From contig CALKXH010000093.1 of assembly GCA_938005675.1 (NCBI GenBank), positions 1 through 64,000 of the forward strand: a stretch of DNA of 64,000 nt. Reading direction: 5' to 3'. Origin of the DNA: an uncultured Anaerolineae bacterium (lineage in GTDB: Bacteria; Chloroflexota; Anaerolineae; Aggregatilineales; UBA2796). Positions 9,785 to 18,795 of this stretch are shown here, in pieces; the stretch's first letter is position 1; the number at the start of each line of letters is the position of its first letter. The translations under genes and the position numbers were made by a program. The notes below the pieces were generated by a model. The model was not told where the DNA came from. It was given only the letters and a program-made list of their open reading frames with translations, and ran no database searches.

Positions 9785-11308
9785 CTACCGCGCGCTTGAA
9801 GGCGCCGAGAGGCGCGCAGGCTGCGCAAAACGCCGCTGCGCCGCGACGCGCACCACCTCAGCCGCCACGCGCAGCGCCCCCGCCGTGACGCCCGCCGTGC
9901 TCTGCCCCGGAAAGATGCTATCGCCGACCAGCCACAGATTCTCGACGCCGGTGTGCGGTCCGCGCACGTTCAGCAGGCTGGCGAAGGGGAAACCGCCCAC
10001 CATGCCGAGCGGTCGCCGCGTGAAGCGCTGGAAGGCGGCGGGCGTGCCGGGCAGGATCAGCTGGGCGGCGCCCCGCACGTTCGGGATGACGCGCTCGGCG
10101 GCGTCCAGCAGCCTATCGCGGTACTGCTCCACGCGCCGCTGATAGCCGTCGGGATCGTCTTGGCGCAGGCGCCACCACGGCGCGATTGCCGTGTGCGTGG
10201 AGAGCGTCACGGCGCGCATCCCGCTGGGCGCGCGCTCGGCATCGTGCGGGCTGCTGATCGAGATGAAGACCGAGTTGCCCTCGCCGAGCGGCTGATCGAG
10301 GTCTTGCACGACTTGGAAATGCTCGGCGTGAGTGGGCAGGGCGGCGCTCGGCACGCCCAAATAGAGCGTGAAGGCGCCCCACGTGCTCGGGCGGCTCTTG
10401 ACCTCGCGCTGCAGAGCGGGCGGGGCTGCCTCGCCCAGCAGATCGGCGAGCGCCCACGGCGTCAAATTCGCCAGCACGATGTCCGCCTCGAAAGTGTTGC
10501 CCTTGTTGGTGTGCAGCAGGAAGCTCTTATCGGCGCGGCGCTCGATGCGCGTGACGGCGTGCCGATAGACGATCCGTCCGCCGTGCTTAGCGAGCGCCTC
10601 TGCCAGTTGGCGGGCGATGTTGCCGATGCCGCCGCGCGGATGATAGACGCCCACGCGCGGCAAATCCACGGCGATGGCGCCGTAGAGCGCGTTGGCGTGG
10701 CGGCTGGTGGTCTGGGCGCTGATGAGCAGCTGGGCGTCGATGAACGTCCGCGCGTTGCGCTCGCGCACGCCCAGCCAATTCAGCAGCTGACCCATGCTCA
10801 GGAGCGCTAGAGGGCTGATCGGGATCAGATTCGGGCGAATTTTGGCGGCGAGGCGGAGGAGATCGCCCAGCGAGGCGGGCGGATACTCAGGGATGCGCGC
10901 CGCGAATTGCCACGCCGCCTCAGCCGCCCGCTCTTGGATGCCCCAGAAGCGCCGCAATTCGGGCAGTTTGGCGGCGCGCTCCTCGCGCCAACGTGCCTCC
11001 TCGCCCCAGCGCGTGATGGTGCGTTCGGGCAGGTGGATGACCCACGCGGGCTCGATGCGCTCGATCTGCCACGTGATGCCGAGCAGATCGCCCGCGATCT
11101 GGTGCGGACCGCCCGCTTGGAAGCCCCCGGCTACGGTCGCGCCGGCGTCGAAGCGGTAGCCCTTGTGATAGAACGTGCCGGCGCAGCCGCCCGCGTAGAC
11201 GTGCGCCTCCAACACGGTCACATCGAAGCCCTCGCGGGCTAGGAGCGCGCCCGCCGTCAAGCCGCCCACGCCGCCGCCGATCACCACCACGCGCTTCGTT
11301 CTCGTCAT
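9785..11308 (-). CDS. NAD(P)/FAD-dependent oxidoreductase, CrtI/CrtD carotenoid desaturase-like
   Basis: VVVIGGGVGGLTAGALLAREGFDVTVLEA; C-term LWLVGDSIFPGQSTAGVTAGALRVA. Confidence 0.85.
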   Translation of the reverse strand: MTRTKRVVVIGGGVGGLTAGALLAREGFDVTVLEAHVYAGGCAGTFYHKGYRFDAGATVAGGFQAGGPHQIAGDLLGITWQIERIEPAWVIHLPERTITRWGEEARWREERAAKLPELRRFWGIQERAAEAAWQFAARIPEYPPASLGDLLRLAAKIRPNLIPISPLALLSMGQLLNWLGVRERNARTFIDAQLLISAQTTSRHANALYGAIAVDLPRVGVYHPRGGIGNIARQLAEALAKHGGRIVYRHAVTRIERRADKSFLLHTNKGNTFEADIVLANLTPWALADLLGEAAPPALQREVKSRPSTWGAFTLYLGVPSAALPTHAEHFQVVQDLDQPLGEGNSVFISISSPHDAERAPSGMRAVTLSTHTAIAPWWRLRQDDPDGYQRRVEQYRDRLLDAAERVIPNVRGAAQLILPGTPAAFQRFTRRPLGMVGGFPFASLLNVRGPHTGVENLWLVGDSIFPGQSTAGVTAGALRVAAEVVRVAAQRRFAQPARLSAPSSAR

Positions 11309-11389
11309 CGCCTGTTCACCGTCCTGCTGTGCTTTGCGTCGCCTTTTTGTGAAGTTTAGCACAGCGCCGAGCCTTTGACGAACGCTCGT

Positions 11390-12997
11390 CTAGCCTTCGT
11401 CGAGGCTCAGGCGGGCTATTGGCTGCACGGCGACCTCCGGCAGCAGCTCTTGGTAGGTCAGGACGTGAACGTGCGGCAACTCCACGTCGATCAGGGCGCG
11501 GACGGCGGCGCGCAGGTCGGGCGTGGTGACGAGGATCGGGGCGCTCTCAGCGGGGCGGGCGAGGTGAGCGCGCAAGGCGCTCAGCAGGCGCGCCCGCGCC
11601 CGCTCGGGCGCCTCAGTGACCGCCGCCTCCAGCTCAGGCGCGAGCAAGTAGACGCGGATGGGCGTCCCCTCGCGCGCCGCCTGCTGAGTCAGTTGGCGGC
11701 TGAGGCGCTGCCGCACAAAGGCGAGCAAGCCTGCCTCAAGGGGCGGCGGCGCGCCGACCTGCAAGCGCTCATCGAAGGCGATCTGATCGGGCGGCACGTG
11801 GATGTAGTCGTAGGCGAGGATCGCCTCGAGGATCAGGCGCATGTTGCGCACGCCGACTCCCTCCGCCAAAAGCGCGCGCAGCAGTCGCGCCAACGTCGGC
11901 GGCGCGATGCGCTCCTGAACGGCTTCGGCGAGGGCGGGGAAGGCGAGCCCGACCTGCTCGATCATACGTTGCGCCGCCGCTTGGCACAGGAACAAGGCGC
12001 TATAGCGGCGCAGCAGCGCGCTGACGTTCAGCACGAGGTAGCCAAAGGGCGTCCAGACGTAAAAGCCCTCAGCGCGGATGGCGTCGGCATCGGCGCTGTG
12101 CGCCAAGGCGAGTTGCCGTCCGTTGAGGGGGCTGTGGGCGGGCTGCGAGGGGATGCCGCGCTCGCTCAGCTGCTCAGGGCGCGCGTTGACCAAGACTTGC
12201 GCTGCGCTCAAGCCTTGCCACGGGGCGGAGGGCAGCTCGTTGAGGGCGAGCGCGAATTGGTTGAAGGGCAACGCCTCGTCTAGGGCAAAGGTCAGCGACG
12301 GGAGGCGGATGCCTAGCTCCTCGAAGAGCCCCTCGCGCATCAAGCTGAAGAGCGCGCGCTCGTCTTCGCCCGCCGACTCGGTCAGGGCGCGCAGAGTCGC
12401 GACGGAGCAGCAGATGGCGAGTTGTTGCGGACGCAGACGCGCCAAGAGCGCCTCGCCGCGCTCATCGGTCGATTCTTGCAGCACGGCAGCGATGGTCGAG
12501 GCGTCTCGCAGCGAGAGGCGCAACGCCAACAGCGGCGCAAGCGCCTTGCGCAAGGCGCTGAGCGGATAAGCGGCGAGCGCCTCAGGCAGCTGATCGCGGT
12601 AGGCGGCGAGGACGGGCTCGGTCAGCAGCTGGGCGGCTTGATCGCTCAGGGCGTGCTGCACAAACGCGCCGAAAAAGGACGGCATCCGCTCAGGTTGTTG
12701 GCTCAGCCACTGCGCTATCGCGCTGGCAGGGACGGGCGCGTAGAGCGCGCCGCTCTCTGCCGCGAAGAGTTGACTCTCAAGGCTATCGGCGTGGCGGCAC
12801 AGGTTGCCCTCGACGTACAAGGCGGCGAGCCCGTGCGGCAAAACGGCGCGCTCGACGGAGAGAGTCGGCGCGGCGGGGATGCCCAGCCGCGCGCAGAGGT
12901 CTTGCGCCGCCCCTTGCGCCGCCGCGCCGATGGCGGAGAGGTCGATCCCCTCGCCCAAGGCGCCATCAAGCTTGAGAGTCAGTCTGAGCGGCGTCAT
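11390..12997 (-). CDS. Soluble protein made of two tandem FlhA/SctV (FHIPEP) C-terminal cytosolic-domain-like modules
   Basis: LFEELGIRLPSLTFALDEALPFNQFALALNE...GIPSQPAHSPLNGRQLAL...LLRALLAEGVGVRNMRLILEAIL...APILVTTPDLRAAVRALIDVELPHVHVLTYQELLPEVAV follows the FlhA-C pattern; N-half repeats it (LSALRKALAPLLALRLSLRDASTIAAVLQ); no TM segment. Confidence 0.75.
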   Translation of the reverse strand: MTPLRLTLKLDGALGEGIDLSAIGAAAQGAAQDLCARLGIPAAPTLSVERAVLPHGLAALYVEGNLCRHADSLESQLFAAESGALYAPVPASAIAQWLSQQPERMPSFFGAFVQHALSDQAAQLLTEPVLAAYRDQLPEALAAYPLSALRKALAPLLALRLSLRDASTIAAVLQESTDERGEALLARLRPQQLAICCSVATLRALTESAGEDERALFSLMREGLFEELGIRLPSLTFALDEALPFNQFALALNELPSAPWQGLSAAQVLVNARPEQLSERGIPSQPAHSPLNGRQLALAHSADADAIRAEGFYVWTPFGYLVLNVSALLRRYSALFLCQAAAQRMIEQVGLAFPALAEAVQERIAPPTLARLLRALLAEGVGVRNMRLILEAILAYDYIHVPPDQIAFDERLQVGAPPPLEAGLLAFVRQRLSRQLTQQAAREGTPIRVYLLAPELEAAVTEAPERARARLLSALRAHLARPAESAPILVTTPDLRAAVRALIDVELPHVHVLTYQELLPEVAVQPIARLSLDEG

Positions 12998-15900
12998 CCT
13001 CTAGCTCTTCCTGTGCCAGCACGGTCAGGTACGGGAATTCGTAGCGCGTCAGGGGCGGCAGCGCCATGCACAAGCGCCAATCCGAGACGATCAGCGCCGC
13101 GCGCGGCTGCTCAGGCGGCAGCAGCGCCCGCAACGCCGCAAGGATTTCCTGAGCGACCGACGGCGGCATGGCGAGGTAGCTGGGCGAGTCGGCGACGAGA
13201 TGCTGCAGCAAGGTCGACTCGATCTCAGGCGGCAAGCGCAGAGTCGGCAAGTGGCGCGGCAACGCCTCTCGCAGGGCGAGGCGCGCCGCGCGGTACGCCG
13301 CCTCGAAGTCGGGCGCGCCCAGCGCCGTCAGCAAGCTGGGGCGCAACGGCAAGCCATCGCGCAGCAACAGACGCGCCAAGCGCAGCGCCGTCGCGCGCTC
13401 AGCCGTCGTGAGCGCCCCTTCGGGCTGCCACGCGCTCAGCAGATCGCTCAGGGTCTGCCAAGTCAGCAGATGCGGCAAGTTCTGGCGCAAGAGCGCCTCT
13501 AGGTGCAAGAGCAGATAGTCAAAGGGATCGTCCAGCAGCCGCAAGCGCAACAGGCGCGCCCGCGACGCCTCGCTTTGATTGATCCACGCGCCGCGCACCC
13601 GACTGAGCGGCTGGAGCGCCTCGCGCTGGACGCCGATCCCCGCCGCGCGCAACGTCTCAGGCGATTCCTCGCAGAAGAGCGTCCCCGTCGGCAGAAAATC
13701 GAGGGCGAGCGGCACTTCATCGAGGGCGATCAGGTAGGCATCGAGGGGCAGCGCCTCGTTGCGGCGCAGCCGCACGCCGGGCAAGCGGAAGCCCATCTCT
13801 TGAGCAAGGCGCGCCCGCAGATCGGGCAGGCGGCGCTCCAACAAATCCGACGGCGGGGCGTCCTCGGCGCTCAGCAAGCTCGGCGCGAGGTCGATCCGAA
13901 GCGGCGCCACCAGCGGGAAGCGCTCCGCGCCGATCTCAGTCAGGCTGAAGGTCTGAGCGAGATACTGCAGCAGCGCCGCAAAGAACGACTCGCCGATCTC
14001 AGGCGGCAAAACGTCGCGCAGCTCCGCCAACTGCCAGACGAACGGGACGTCGCCCGCCAAGGCGAGGCACGCCTCCGCCAACGCCGCGCCCATCGACGGG
14101 ACGCCCGCCGCCTTGAAGCGCTTGAGGGCGGCGTTGAACTCGGCGAGGTGCGGCTTGCCCTGCGCGAGGCGCACACAGGCAATGCGCGCGCGCAGCTCGC
14201 CCTGAAAGCGCGCGTCGTCGGGCAGGAATTCGCTCAGGGCGCGGTAGCGCTCCAAAGCGGCGCTCGCCTCGCCCTCTTTGAAGCGGTCGTCCGCCGCCTT
14301 CATCAGCTCGATCAGGGCGTCGCTCAGGCAAGCGCCCGCCTCCGGGAAGCGCTCTGGCTCGCCCAGCAGCCGTTGATAGCACGCCGCCGCATCTTCATAC
14401 CGTCCCGCCTCCATGTAGAGCCTGCCTAAGCTCGCCTGCTGCCCGATGAACTGCCAGCTCCCTTCAGGCGCGTCCTCGAGGCTCTCCAAGAGGGCGGTCA
14501 GCGGGAGGGGCTGCCCGATCTCCGCCGCCCGCTCGTTCAGACGCGCCTCGAAAGCATCGAGCAGGGCGTTGGCGGGCTCGGCGTGATCCCAATCGGCGCT
14601 GAGGCGGCGGACAGTCGGCAAGTCAAGGCGGATGAGCCGCCAATGTTGCTGCGGATTGCTGAGCAGCTCAGCCGCCTGCGCGAAAGCCGCCTCAGCGCTC
14701 TCCAGATCGGCGAGGGCGAGGTAAGCGAAGCCGAGATTGGCGTAAACATAGGTCGGCGACTCGCTCTCCTGCTGCAGGGCGCGCTCCAGATAGGGCAAGG
14801 CTTCCTCAGCGTAGCCGAGCATCACGCCCGCCCAGCCGCAGAGGTTGCCATCGGCGGCGTAGAGGGGCGAGTCGCGCTCCGCCCAGAGGTAGCGGTAGGT
14901 ATCGGCGGCGCGCTCGTAGTCGCCCAGCAGACGGTAGGCATCGGCGCGCACGCCCAGATACCACGCCAGCAGCGGATCGCTCGCCTCGATGGCGCGCCCG
15001 ATCAGCGCTAGGGCGCGCTCAGGCTGCTCCTGGTGCAAGTAGATGTAGGCTTGCACGGCGTCCGCCCACGCGCTGGGCTGCTTGGCGCGGAAGCGCTCTA
15101 AGAGCGGCAGCGCCTCCTCAAACTGACCGACGTTGGTCAGCGTGATGATCGAATCCTCAAGGGCGCTGTCATCGCCCAGCTGAGCGGCGCGCCGCGCCGC
15201 ATCGACGGCGAGGCGCTCCAGATCGAGCGCCCGATACGCCCGATTGAGCGCCTGCCAGCGATAGGGATCGCCGTCATCGAGGGCTAAGCCGCGCTCTAGG
15301 AAGGCGACCGCCTCCCAACGCAGAGTCTCAACGTCCTGAGCGGGCAAACGCGCCCGACTCTCGCACTGCAGGGCGCGCACATCGTACGCCCAAGCGTGCT
15401 CAGCATCAGGATGGCGCAGGGCGAAGCCTCTCTGGAGCGCCGCCTCGCTCTCAGCTAGGAGCGGCTCGTCCACAAAGGGGTGAGAGGGCAGCGCCGCCGC
15501 GCCCAGCAGCGCGTTCGCCAAGAGCCAGTGCGCCACGGCGCCATCGGGCTGCAGACGGCAAGCGGCGCGCAGCAGCTCCGCCGCGACCGCGTGCTGATTC
15601 AGCCACAGAAAACGCTTGCCCGCCTCAAGGTACGCTGCCGCCGCCTCCTCAGCCCGACCGAGCGCCTCAAGGACTTCGGCGCGCAGGCGATGGGCGATTC
15701 GGTCGGGCTGGGCGGTGTCGTCGCGCACGCCCAGCGCGAGGGCGCGCTCGGCGGCGCGCAATGCCGCCTCAAGGTCGCTGTGGCGCAAGCGCCGAACGGC
15801 TTGCAGGTACAGGTTGCCGCTCTGCGGGCGGTTGAATTGGCGCAGCGCCGCCAAGACCGTCGCATCGTTGCCCAACACGGCGAGGGCGTCGGCGTAGTGA

Positions 15901-16496
15901 TCGTCGGCGCGCAGCCACGCCCGCTCAGACTCTGCCAGCAAGCCCAAGCCGATGTGCGCATCGGGCGAGTTGTGTCGCAGCGCCCGCTGATAGTGCGCGC
16001 GCGCCGCCTCCGCCTCGCCCATGACGCGGAAATAGTCGCCCAGCGCCGCTTGCGCCAACGGATCGTCGGGCGCCAATTGGGCGGCTTGTTCAAGGCGGGC
16101 GCGGGCGAGGTCGGGCGCGCGCGCCAGCAGGGCGCGCCCCTCGCTGACCAGCGCCGCCACCGTCGGATCGGGCAGGTGCAACGCCGCGCGGAAGGCGCTC
16201 AGGAAGTCCCGCCAGAGCTTTTCTAACGCGCGGTGCGGCGCGTTGGAGAGCTCGGAGGGGAGCGCGCCCTCTTCGAGGGTCAGGGCGAGGATCGGCACGC
16301 CGTGCGTCTGCGCCGCCCGCCGTTCGGCGCTGCAAGTCAGACTCTCGGCGTAGCGCGGCGTGATCAGGGCGAGGAACTGATCGCACTCGGCGATCTGGTC
16401 GAGCGCGCCGCTGTAGAGCGCGTAGCCCGCCAAGGCGGCGCGCACAAGTTGCGCGTAGAGCGCGTCCTCAGGCGCGAAACTCAGGTAGAGCTTCAT
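12966..16496 (-). CDS. TIR-like / TPR repeat / FHIPEP C-domain-like multidomain protein (1176 aa)
   Basis: N-term MKLYLSFAPEDALYAQLVRAAL...CDQFLALITPRYAESLTCSAERRAA...VPILALTL (TIR-like); long TPR array; C-term LPDLRARLAQEMGFRLPGVRLRRNEALPLDAYLIALDEVPLA...LPPEIESTLLQHL...AALIVSDWRLCMALPPLTRYEFPYLTVLAQEEL. Confidence 0.75.
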   Translation of the reverse strand: MKLYLSFAPEDALYAQLVRAALAGYALYSGALDQIAECDQFLALITPRYAESLTCSAERRAAQTHGVPILALTLEEGALPSELSNAPHRALEKLWRDFLSAFRAALHLPDPTVAALVSEGRALLARAPDLARARLEQAAQLAPDDPLAQAALGDYFRVMGEAEAARAHYQRALRHNSPDAHIGLGLLAESERAWLRADDHYADALAVLGNDATVLAALRQFNRPQSGNLYLQAVRRLRHSDLEAALRAAERALALGVRDDTAQPDRIAHRLRAEVLEALGRAEEAAAAYLEAGKRFLWLNQHAVAAELLRAACRLQPDGAVAHWLLANALLGAAALPSHPFVDEPLLAESEAALQRGFALRHPDAEHAWAYDVRALQCESRARLPAQDVETLRWEAVAFLERGLALDDGDPYRWQALNRAYRALDLERLAVDAARRAAQLGDDSALEDSIITLTNVGQFEEALPLLERFRAKQPSAWADAVQAYIYLHQEQPERALALIGRAIEASDPLLAWYLGVRADAYRLLGDYERAADTYRYLWAERDSPLYAADGNLCGWAGVMLGYAEEALPYLERALQQESESPTYVYANLGFAYLALADLESAEAAFAQAAELLSNPQQHWRLIRLDLPTVRRLSADWDHAEPANALLDAFEARLNERAAEIGQPLPLTALLESLEDAPEGSWQFIGQQASLGRLYMEAGRYEDAAACYQRLLGEPERFPEAGACLSDALIELMKAADDRFKEGEASAALERYRALSEFLPDDARFQGELRARIACVRLAQGKPHLAEFNAALKRFKAAGVPSMGAALAEACLALAGDVPFVWQLAELRDVLPPEIGESFFAALLQYLAQTFSLTEIGAERFPLVAPLRIDLAPSLLSAEDAPPSDLLERRLPDLRARLAQEMGFRLPGVRLRRNEALPLDAYLIALDEVPLALDFLPTGTLFCEESPETLRAAGIGVQREALQPLSRVRGAWINQSEASRARLLRLRLLDDPFDYLLLHLEALLRQNLPHLLTWQTLSDLLSAWQPEGALTTAERATALRLARLLLRDGLPLRPSLLTALGAPDFEAAYRAARLALREALPRHLPTLRLPPEIESTLLQHLVADSPSYLAMPPSVAQEILAALRALLPPEQPRAALIVSDWRLCMALPPLTRYEFPYLTVLAQEELEDDAAQTDSQA

Positions 16497-17854
16497 GCCC
16501 CGCGCTCCTTGAGCAAGCTCATCATCGCCTCAAGCACGTCCTGCTGCTCAGCCGTGCCTTCGAGGCTGAATTGATAGCGCCACTCACGGCGCAGCTCCGC
16601 CAACCATAAGCTCGGCGCCAGACCCTCAAGGCGCTCGACGACTCCGACGGCGAAGTGGCGCACAGCGAGGCGGCGCGCCTCGTCGGCGATGCGCTCAAGG
16701 CGCGGGCGGGCGGCGATCAGCAGATCGTCGGCGCTCAGGGCGGCGTGATCGGGCGGCTCAAGCGGGCGCGCCGCGCCCTGATCGGCGGGCTGGATCAAGC
16801 CATCGGCGCTGTGCAGGTACAAGACGGGCGTCCCGAAGGTGCGGGCGGCGTGTTGGCGCATGTGGCTGAGCGCTTGCCTGCCCAGCTGCACGGCGTGATC
16901 GAGCGGCTCGCCGCGCAGCAGCGCCTCGTAGAAGACGCGGCTGAAATCGATGGCAGCCATGTTGGTGATCGGATACTGCATCGCCACGACCGCCTGCACG
17001 CCCCTCTGGACGAGGCGCGGCGCCAAGCCGCCGAAACTCTCGCGCAGATCGGCGCGCGCCCCCTCGCACAGGTGCAGCACCACCAAGCGCGGCAAGGTCG
17101 CGGCGAGGCTGCACCAAGCGGCGAAGTCGGCGTCGCTGCACCAATCCGCCGTCTCGTCGGGCTGCAGGAGCGCAATCGCGCCGCTGCCCGTCTCGGCGTT
17201 GAAGGCGCCGTGTCCGATGAAGTGCAAGACGTGCGGCTGAAAAGTCCGCAGCCGCTCGGTGAAAGCGGCGACCGTCGCCTTGCCCAACACCTCGACTTGC
17301 ACCGGGTATGCCTCCGAGAGCCGCTGAATCGCCTCGATCACGCGCGGCTCTAGCACCGGATCGAGATCGCGCGGCTTGGCGACGGCGACCAAGACGCGCA
17401 ACATCCCCGCTGGGCGCAGAGTCTGGCGGCTCTCGCGCGGGAAGTAGCGCGAGAGGACGAGATCGACGTGGCTGCACAGGAAATAATCGCCGCGCGGATA
17501 GTGCAAAAACTCCCAAGGCAGGCTGGCGAGTTCCGCCGCGCCCGCCTCAAAGCTGAGCTGCAGGCGCAAGCGCTCGCCGTTCGCCTTCGCCATGCTCAGC
17601 GACTCCTCAAAGAGTCGCTCGATCTCAAGGTCGAAGAGCAGCTGATACAAATGTTGCCCGAAGACGGCGATCTCTTGCGCGTCGCTGAACTTGTTGGCGC
17701 GCAGCCAGCGCTCGAAGAGGCGGATCGTGCGCCGAGTCAGGCTGCCGCGCTCGAAGCCGCGCACAGCGCCGCGCGCCATCTTCTCGTCGGCGCGCCGACG
17801 CGCCTGCAGGCTGCGTCCGTCGTTTTCAACGCTCAGGATCAGCTCGGCGCCCAT
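16493..17854 (-). CDS. CHAT domain (caspase-like) protease with extra C-terminal domain
   Basis: LPWEFLHYP, VLHFIGHGAFN (His), LVVLHLCEGARADL (Cys), GVQAVVAMQYPITNMAAIDFSRVFYEALLRG; ATG at 17854; ATGA overlap with next gene. Confidence 0.9.
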   Translation of the reverse strand: MGAELILSVENDGRSLQARRRADEKMARGAVRGFERGSLTRRTIRLFERWLRANKFSDAQEIAVFGQHLYQLLFDLEIERLFEESLSMAKANGERLRLQLSFEAGAAELASLPWEFLHYPRGDYFLCSHVDLVLSRYFPRESRQTLRPAGMLRVLVAVAKPRDLDPVLEPRVIEAIQRLSEAYPVQVEVLGKATVAAFTERLRTFQPHVLHFIGHGAFNAETGSGAIALLQPDETADWCSDADFAAWCSLAATLPRLVVLHLCEGARADLRESFGGLAPRLVQRGVQAVVAMQYPITNMAAIDFSRVFYEALLRGEPLDHAVQLGRQALSHMRQHAARTFGTPVLYLHSADGLIQPADQGAARPLEPPDHAALSADDLLIAARPRLERIADEARRLAVRHFAVGVVERLEGLAPSLWLAELRREWRYQFSLEGTAEQQDVLEAMMSLLKERGA

Positions 17855-17865
17855 CGCCTGCCGCG

Positions 17866-18795
17866 CTACAGCCGCGTCGAGAGGTCGTAGAGGTTGGCGT
17901 CGCGCACGGGCGCGCCCGCCCGCAAGAAATTGCGCAGGCGCTCGCCCAAGTAAGCGACGATCTCGCCCAAGCCCGCCGCCGCAAAGTTGAAATTGGCGTA
18001 GGCTTGCACCGCTGCCGCCACCTTCAGCTCGCTGACGGAGCGCGGCACTTGCAGCACGACTGCGAACTGCGGCACGCGCTCGCGGAAGAACTCCGCGCCG
18101 CTGACCCGCCAAAAGACTTTGTGCGTCTTCTCGCCGCTGTGCTCGATCTGGGCGCGCACGAGGCGATAGTTGAACGGACCGACGCTCACGCCGCCGCCCA
18201 GCCCGACTCCGGCGCCCGCGCCCGCGCTCCCGCCGATGTTGGGCAGGCTCAGCGCGCCGCTGTGCAGCTCGAACTCAAAATTCTGGTTCAAGCGCACGGT
18301 CGCCTCGGCGTTCGCCTCTAGCAAAGTCAGGAATTTCTTATCGGGCAGGATCAGGGCGCTGATCGGGCGCTGATCGTCGGGGGCGGTCGGGTTGAACTCG
18401 ACGGCGCACTCCACGCGCACGAAGGGCATGTTCGGGCGGGCGTGGTAGCCGACGGGCAGATGCAGCCAGTAGAAGTTGTAGCGCTCGCTCAGGCGCTTGA
18501 ACAGCTGCGGCACGGGCAAATTCTGCTCGGTGAAGTGCGCCTCCTCCAGCTTGAGGAAGTCCAGCTGGCGGCTGAGGAAGGCGCGCTGCTCGTTCAGCTC
18601 GGCGAGGAGCTGCTCGGCGGGCGCGAGGGGGCTCTCCATGCGCCGAGTCGTCTCGCCCATGCTGCGCCTGATGGGTTCTTCGCCCAGCTCGCGCGCCAAG
18701 CCGATGACGTTCTCGCGCACCTCCGCCATCAGGGCGTCGCGGCTCTCGCCGCCGAAATCGAACTCAAAAGTCAAGGGAGTGGGACTGTCAGTCAT
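17866..18795 (-). CDS. Conserved-looking protein of unknown function with Gly-rich hinge (first gene of TIR/CHAT/FHIPEP operon)
   Basis: ATG (MTDSPTPLTFEFDFGGE) at 18795; 11 bp from CHAT start; NIGGSAGAGAGVGLGGGVSVGPFNYR stretch. Confidence 0.75.
   Translation of the reverse strand: MTDSPTPLTFEFDFGGESRDALMAEVRENVIGLARELGEEPIRRSMGETTRRMESPLAPAEQLLAELNEQRAFLSRQLDFLKLEEAHFTEQNLPVPQLFKRLSERYNFYWLHLPVGYHARPNMPFVRVECAVEFNPTAPDDQRPISALILPDKKFLTLLEANAEATVRLNQNFEFELHSGALSLPNIGGSAGAGAGVGLGGGVSVGPFNYRLVRAQIEHSGEKTHKVFWRVSGAEFFRERVPQFAVVLQVPRSVSELKVAAAVQAYANFNFAAAGLGEIVAYLGERLRNFLRAGAPVRDANLYDLSTRL

Follow-up and report, generated by a model that had tools for sequence, protein, structure and literature searches.

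The window, a 64,000-nucleotide stretch of contig CALKXH010000093.1 from an uncultured Anaerolineae bacterium, contains a set of closely packed genes in which the cytosolic domain of FlhA/SctV (FlhAC) is found beside a CHAT protease. The genes and features are as follows.

12966-16496, minus strand: TIR-like - TPR - FlhAC gene, 1176 aa, ATG start
16242-16496, minus strand: TIR-like domain, aa 1-85, BB-loop segment missing; Glu58 codon at 16323-16325
13947-16160, minus strand: TPR array, ~aa 113-850 (Pfam; limits approximate)
12993-13910, minus strand: FlhA/SctV cytosolic domain, aa 863-1168, FHIPEP positions 330-655
11390-12997, minus strand: tandem FlhAC protein P0002, 535 aa; its start overlaps the TIR-TPR-FlhAC gene by 32 bp
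12464-12937, minus strand: reduced first FlhAC module of P0002, ~aa 21-178, without the C-terminal subdomain (hhalign)
11432-12460, minus strand: full FlhAC module of P0002 (119.5 / 111.4 bits)
16493-17854, minus strand: CHAT protease, 453 aa, upstream, overlapping the TIR-TPR-FlhAC gene by 4 bp; start set from orthologues
17210-17212 and 17066-17068, minus strand: CHAT dyad residues His215 and Cys263, both present in the window
17866-18795, minus strand: P0004, ~310 aa, 11 bp before the CHAT gene; no known family

In Pfam searches of the 1176-aa protein, FHIPEP was detected at aa 863-1168 (75.4 bits against a cut-off of 29.1, E 4.8e-21), and several TPR models also passed their cut-offs. Together with the TIR profile comparison described below, this shows that one protein combines a TIR-like part and TPRs with a C-terminus resembling FlhA-C, as the first-pass annotation had proposed from motifs that are all present in it. 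The second FlhA-C protein that it had placed downstream is P0002, which matches FHIPEP at 119.5 bits (Pfam; cut-off 29.1). Homology to FlhA/SctV (LcrD, InvA, CdsV, YscV; PF00771) extends across the whole cytosolic domain, and the best PDB matches of the window FlhAC were LcrD/SctV, CdsV and FlhA. The FHIPEP matches start at position 321-330 of the 657-position profile and so cover the cytosolic half only. The membrane domain of FlhA/SctV is absent, and the N-terminal parts are TIR-like/TPR or reduced FlhAC. Unlike FlhA/SctV, the window proteins are thus soluble, lack the membrane half, are TPR-fused or tandem, and lie beside CHAT. Within the window's genome, FHIPEP is matched only by the TIR-TPR-FlhAC gene and P0002.

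The first ~178 residues of P0002 were matched to FlhAC by hhalign at 95% with a score of 60.2, compared to 25.5 for the best of 150 shuffles. This comparison was negative with shallow profiles and positive with deeper profiles and shuffle controls. Against the flagellar FlhA set alone it gave 89%, FlhA_L058 having been removed and one misread row remaining. AF2 modelled the reduced module with pLDDT mostly of 80-93, dropping near the module's end; over the whole of P0002 the mean pLDDT was 58.5 and the second module was of low confidence. Among the Foldseek matches listed for this model all were SctV or FlhA, and since their TM was at most 0.30 they only repeat the sequence result. Because P0002 carries a second, reduced FlhAC, the two proteins hold three FlhAC modules. 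Behind P0002, at a distance of 27 bp, lies a flavin amine oxidase gene (9785-11362, minus strand); L069 (12001-13566) and L071 (12066-13586) have an ORF of comparable size at this position, and the other families do not.

On the full 1176-aa protein, TIR_2 (PF13676) scored 19.5 bits at aa 31-84, under the curated cut-off of 28. Searching aa 1-125 alone raised the match to a significant 24.1 bits (E 5.5e-5), still below that cut-off. The same match was found independently in two orthologues (E 5.7e-5 and 8.3e-5). A profile of three N-termini was also compared by hhalign with 30 TIR domains from related genomes. Residues 1 to 106 were aligned with a probability of 92 and a score of 41.2, compared to a best score of 22.1 in 200 column shuffles, which bears out a shortened TIR-like N-terminus. 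Glu58 aligns to the conserved TIR Glu and is kept in three orthologues. Where other TIRs carry the WxDxxxIxxG segment (BB loop), the alignment has a gap of ~13 residues. The window protein therefore resembles TIR_2 in profile homology and in the Glu at the catalytic position, and differs in lacking the BB loop and in scoring under the Pfam cut-off. The dN/dS was ~0.12-0.18 for aa 1-85 (roughly 0.1-0.4 across other cassette parts), indicating that the TIR stretch is under purifying selection and is not decaying. AF2 of aa 1-125, run from three sequences only, gave a pLDDT of 39.5, so the TIR-like fold is a call from sequence profiles. Replacing the BB loop of the SfSTING TIR abolished its NADase (PMC9402430). 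Because this loop is missing here and Glu58 is the only one of the checked catalytic features left, the TIR-like domain is unlikely to be an active NADase; a reduced cap with a docking or adaptor use is more likely, given that it lacks the loop that SfSTING needs. Within the cassette, TIR is seen only in the window's genus: other N-termini are present in genomes G270, G306, G204, G825 and G528, and in four other genera the corresponding gene keeps TPR-FlhAC but shows no N-terminal TIR. Genomes of the family are rich in TIR domains, with 7 in the window's genome, 37 in G303 and 51 in G304.

The 453-aa protein upstream matches the CHAT profile at 98 bits (Pfam), and CHAT adjoins TPR-FlhAC in the window and in all seven testable relatives. 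Both residues of the CHAT His-Cys dyad are kept in G825, G528 and the window's genus. They are gone in G270 and G306, and the Cys is gone in G204, so proteolysis cannot be the output in these three genomes. The window CHAT resembles the CHAT proteases of CBASS (SAVED_CHAT, PADLOC; 59 bits) and PDB 8tl0 in having a CHAT domain with the His-Cys dyad. Unlike in SAVED_CHAT, the match is limited to the CHAT part, and the neighbours that were scanned showed no SAVED domain or CD-NTase. In TPR-CHAT (Csx29) of the gRAMP/Craspase system, a CHAT protease works jointly with TPRs, whereas in the window TPR and CHAT are on separate proteins and FlhAC modules are added. The CHAT protein of G825 (59 bits) has a weak C-terminal match to EAD7, a domain named effector-associated (18.8 bits; cut-off 32). 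This weak match recalls the VMAP / iSTAND ternary conflict systems (PMC7159879). Those systems are multidomain operons in which caspase-like and TIR domains occur, and they are described from multicellular bacteria, Chloroflexi among them; Flh proteins are not mentioned in that paper. A scan of the neighbours in the window, G306 and G528 showed no MoxR AAA+ or vWA, the flanks of other relatives having been read by eye only.

P0004 precedes CHAT in three genomes of the window's genus and has a Gly-rich stretch in its middle. It was considered as a known effector, a reading that was dropped as it has no family and no PDB match; in the window's genus only, it is a candidate CHAT substrate. Relatives of P0004 away from the cassette (L084:23-991, L085:9821-10846) are 40% identical in G207 and ~21% in G270.

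The three-gene cassette of CHAT, TPR-FlhAC and tandem FlhAC was found in a single phylum, Chloroflexota, where it spans three families and five genera. The gene order is the same in seven relatives, with genes overlapping or abutting. It was found in G301 and G300 of the window's genus, where P0004 is also present, in G306 and G270 of its family, and in G204 and G825 of another family of the same class. The clearest relative is G825, with a three-gene run and FHIPEP matches of 140 and 135 bits. In G528, which shares only the phylum, the cassette is fragmentary and the CHAT reading frame is broken; the gene lies in two frames (L075:9397-10628), which reflects either a broken gene or an assembly error, and is preceded by a 391-aa protein (L075:10676-11851) of no clear family and no evident likeness to P0004. 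The contigs of G298 and G302 start inside the cassette. As far as seen, the relatives are draft genomes of uncultured bacteria with a completeness of 87-98%. FlhAC profiles matched 8 of 11 family genomes, one of which (G303) is doubtful, leaving 7 of 11 with confidence. A profile search of the wider order gave matches in family members alone, and beyond the family the cassette was found in 2 other genomes among 396 of the class. A broad contig scan with narrow patterns matched only three same-genus loci, and a scan of viral contigs gave no cassette relative. Short weak FlhAC matches in G303, G434, G147, G155 and G073 (E ~1e-4) were not counted; the 1369-aa product of the G303 gene (L074:11044-15153) combines TPRs with nucleotide cyclase and AAA ATPase domains and has no FHIPEP. 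On the same strand in G306, the cassette is followed by genes for a response regulator and a histidine kinase (L072:1432-3374). The idea of a mobile defence island was set aside, as the scanned neighbours are metabolic or regulatory and not defence genes.

The export-gate gene fliP/sctR (PF00813) is absent from all nine cassette genomes (87-98% complete) and present in the control, G646. Since fliP is absent, the cassette FlhAC modules are not secretion parts. In the tree, the FlhAC of the tandem proteins cluster together (support 90/93), separate from Chloroflexota FlhA. No single group unites the TPR-FlhAC copies, and long branches are seen for several rows, including G204; the row FlhA_L058 is in a wrong reading frame and is to be ignored. 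NCBIfam models favoured SctV over FlhA for several copies (127 vs 102 bits in G825) and FlhA over SctV for others. In G204 and G528 the FlhAC of the tandem protein lacks the SD2-containing middle, as assigned from the alignment; the window's P0002 and most copies keep it. In the open-licence literature we found no paper joining FHIPEP/FlhA with TIR, CHAT, TPR, caspase or conflict systems.

Our favoured reading, to which we give a probability of about 0.5, is that the cassette is a soluble scaffold of export-gate origin that regulates a caspase-like protease and probably forms a ring. As the cell has no export apparatus, the FlhAC modules would most likely serve as a cytosolic assembly platform, either a ring or a partial ring. 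FlhA-C and SctV-C form nonameric rings (PMC8213127, PMC7584215), and by analogy the cassette FlhAC may do so too. SctV also crystallises as an octamer and a decamer (PMC9629515), so the oligomer size is not given by homology. We infer that the cassette proteins contact one another: the TPR arm would serve to hold or sense a partner, with assembly acting as the switch for the CHAT protease and proteolysis as the output, either in signalling or in cell death. The reduced TIR-like cap that this arm carries in the window's genus would be for docking or adaptor use. More tentatively, the export-gate ring may have been exapted outside secretion as a soluble apoptosome-like platform. One FlhAC module in the TPR protein and two in the tandem protein would allow three heterodimers to build a nine-module ring that activates the caspase-like protease, with the TIR-like cap and the other N-termini as interchangeable inputs.

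FlhA-C/SctV-C are known to dock chaperone-substrate complexes (PMC5932034, PMC9163089). FlhAC could have kept this ancestral function, binding chaperone-like or client proteins and handing them to CHAT with no need of a ring. Retention of the SD2-containing middle in P0002 and most copies is consistent with such an adaptor, but chaperones bind the SD2-4 cleft (PMC7584215) and its loss from the G204 and G528 tandem copies makes the scaffold the better fit, leaving docking a rather doubtful account. It is somewhat less probable still that the cassette is a housekeeping regulator with no immune role, in which CHAT-dependent proteolysis acts in filament growth or division (compare HetF). The confident presence in 7 of 11 family genomes, the metabolic or regulatory setting and an NCBIfam HetF match to the CHAT protein (48.8 bits) point that way; however, this match is far under the 1200-bit cut-off and spans the CHAT part alone, and the cassette is sparse beyond the family.

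The first-pass annotation had read the system as a means of clustering a TIR effector, in which an FlhAC ring would gather active TIR NADases and deplete NAD+. TIR homology, Glu58 in three orthologues and purifying selection speak for this model, but it is improbable: the BB loop is missing, and four other genera keep the cassette with no TIR seen. It also overlooks the conserved core, which is the three-gene cassette, and leaves out the adjoining upstream CHAT with its intact dyad. A remnant of a degenerate flagellar or type III system would account for the FlhA/SctV homology, but is hardly credible for a cytosolic half that is multiplied, TPR-fused, under purifying selection and kept with the same partners in five genera.

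The cytosolic domains of FlhA/SctV are otherwise known as parts of the flagellum and injectisome. A soluble, duplicated FlhAC beside a caspase-like protease, in genomes where the export gate is absent, suggests that a signalling scaffold can be made from the ring. The cassette offers a way to test how new assembly platforms are gained by protease and TIR systems of bacteria.
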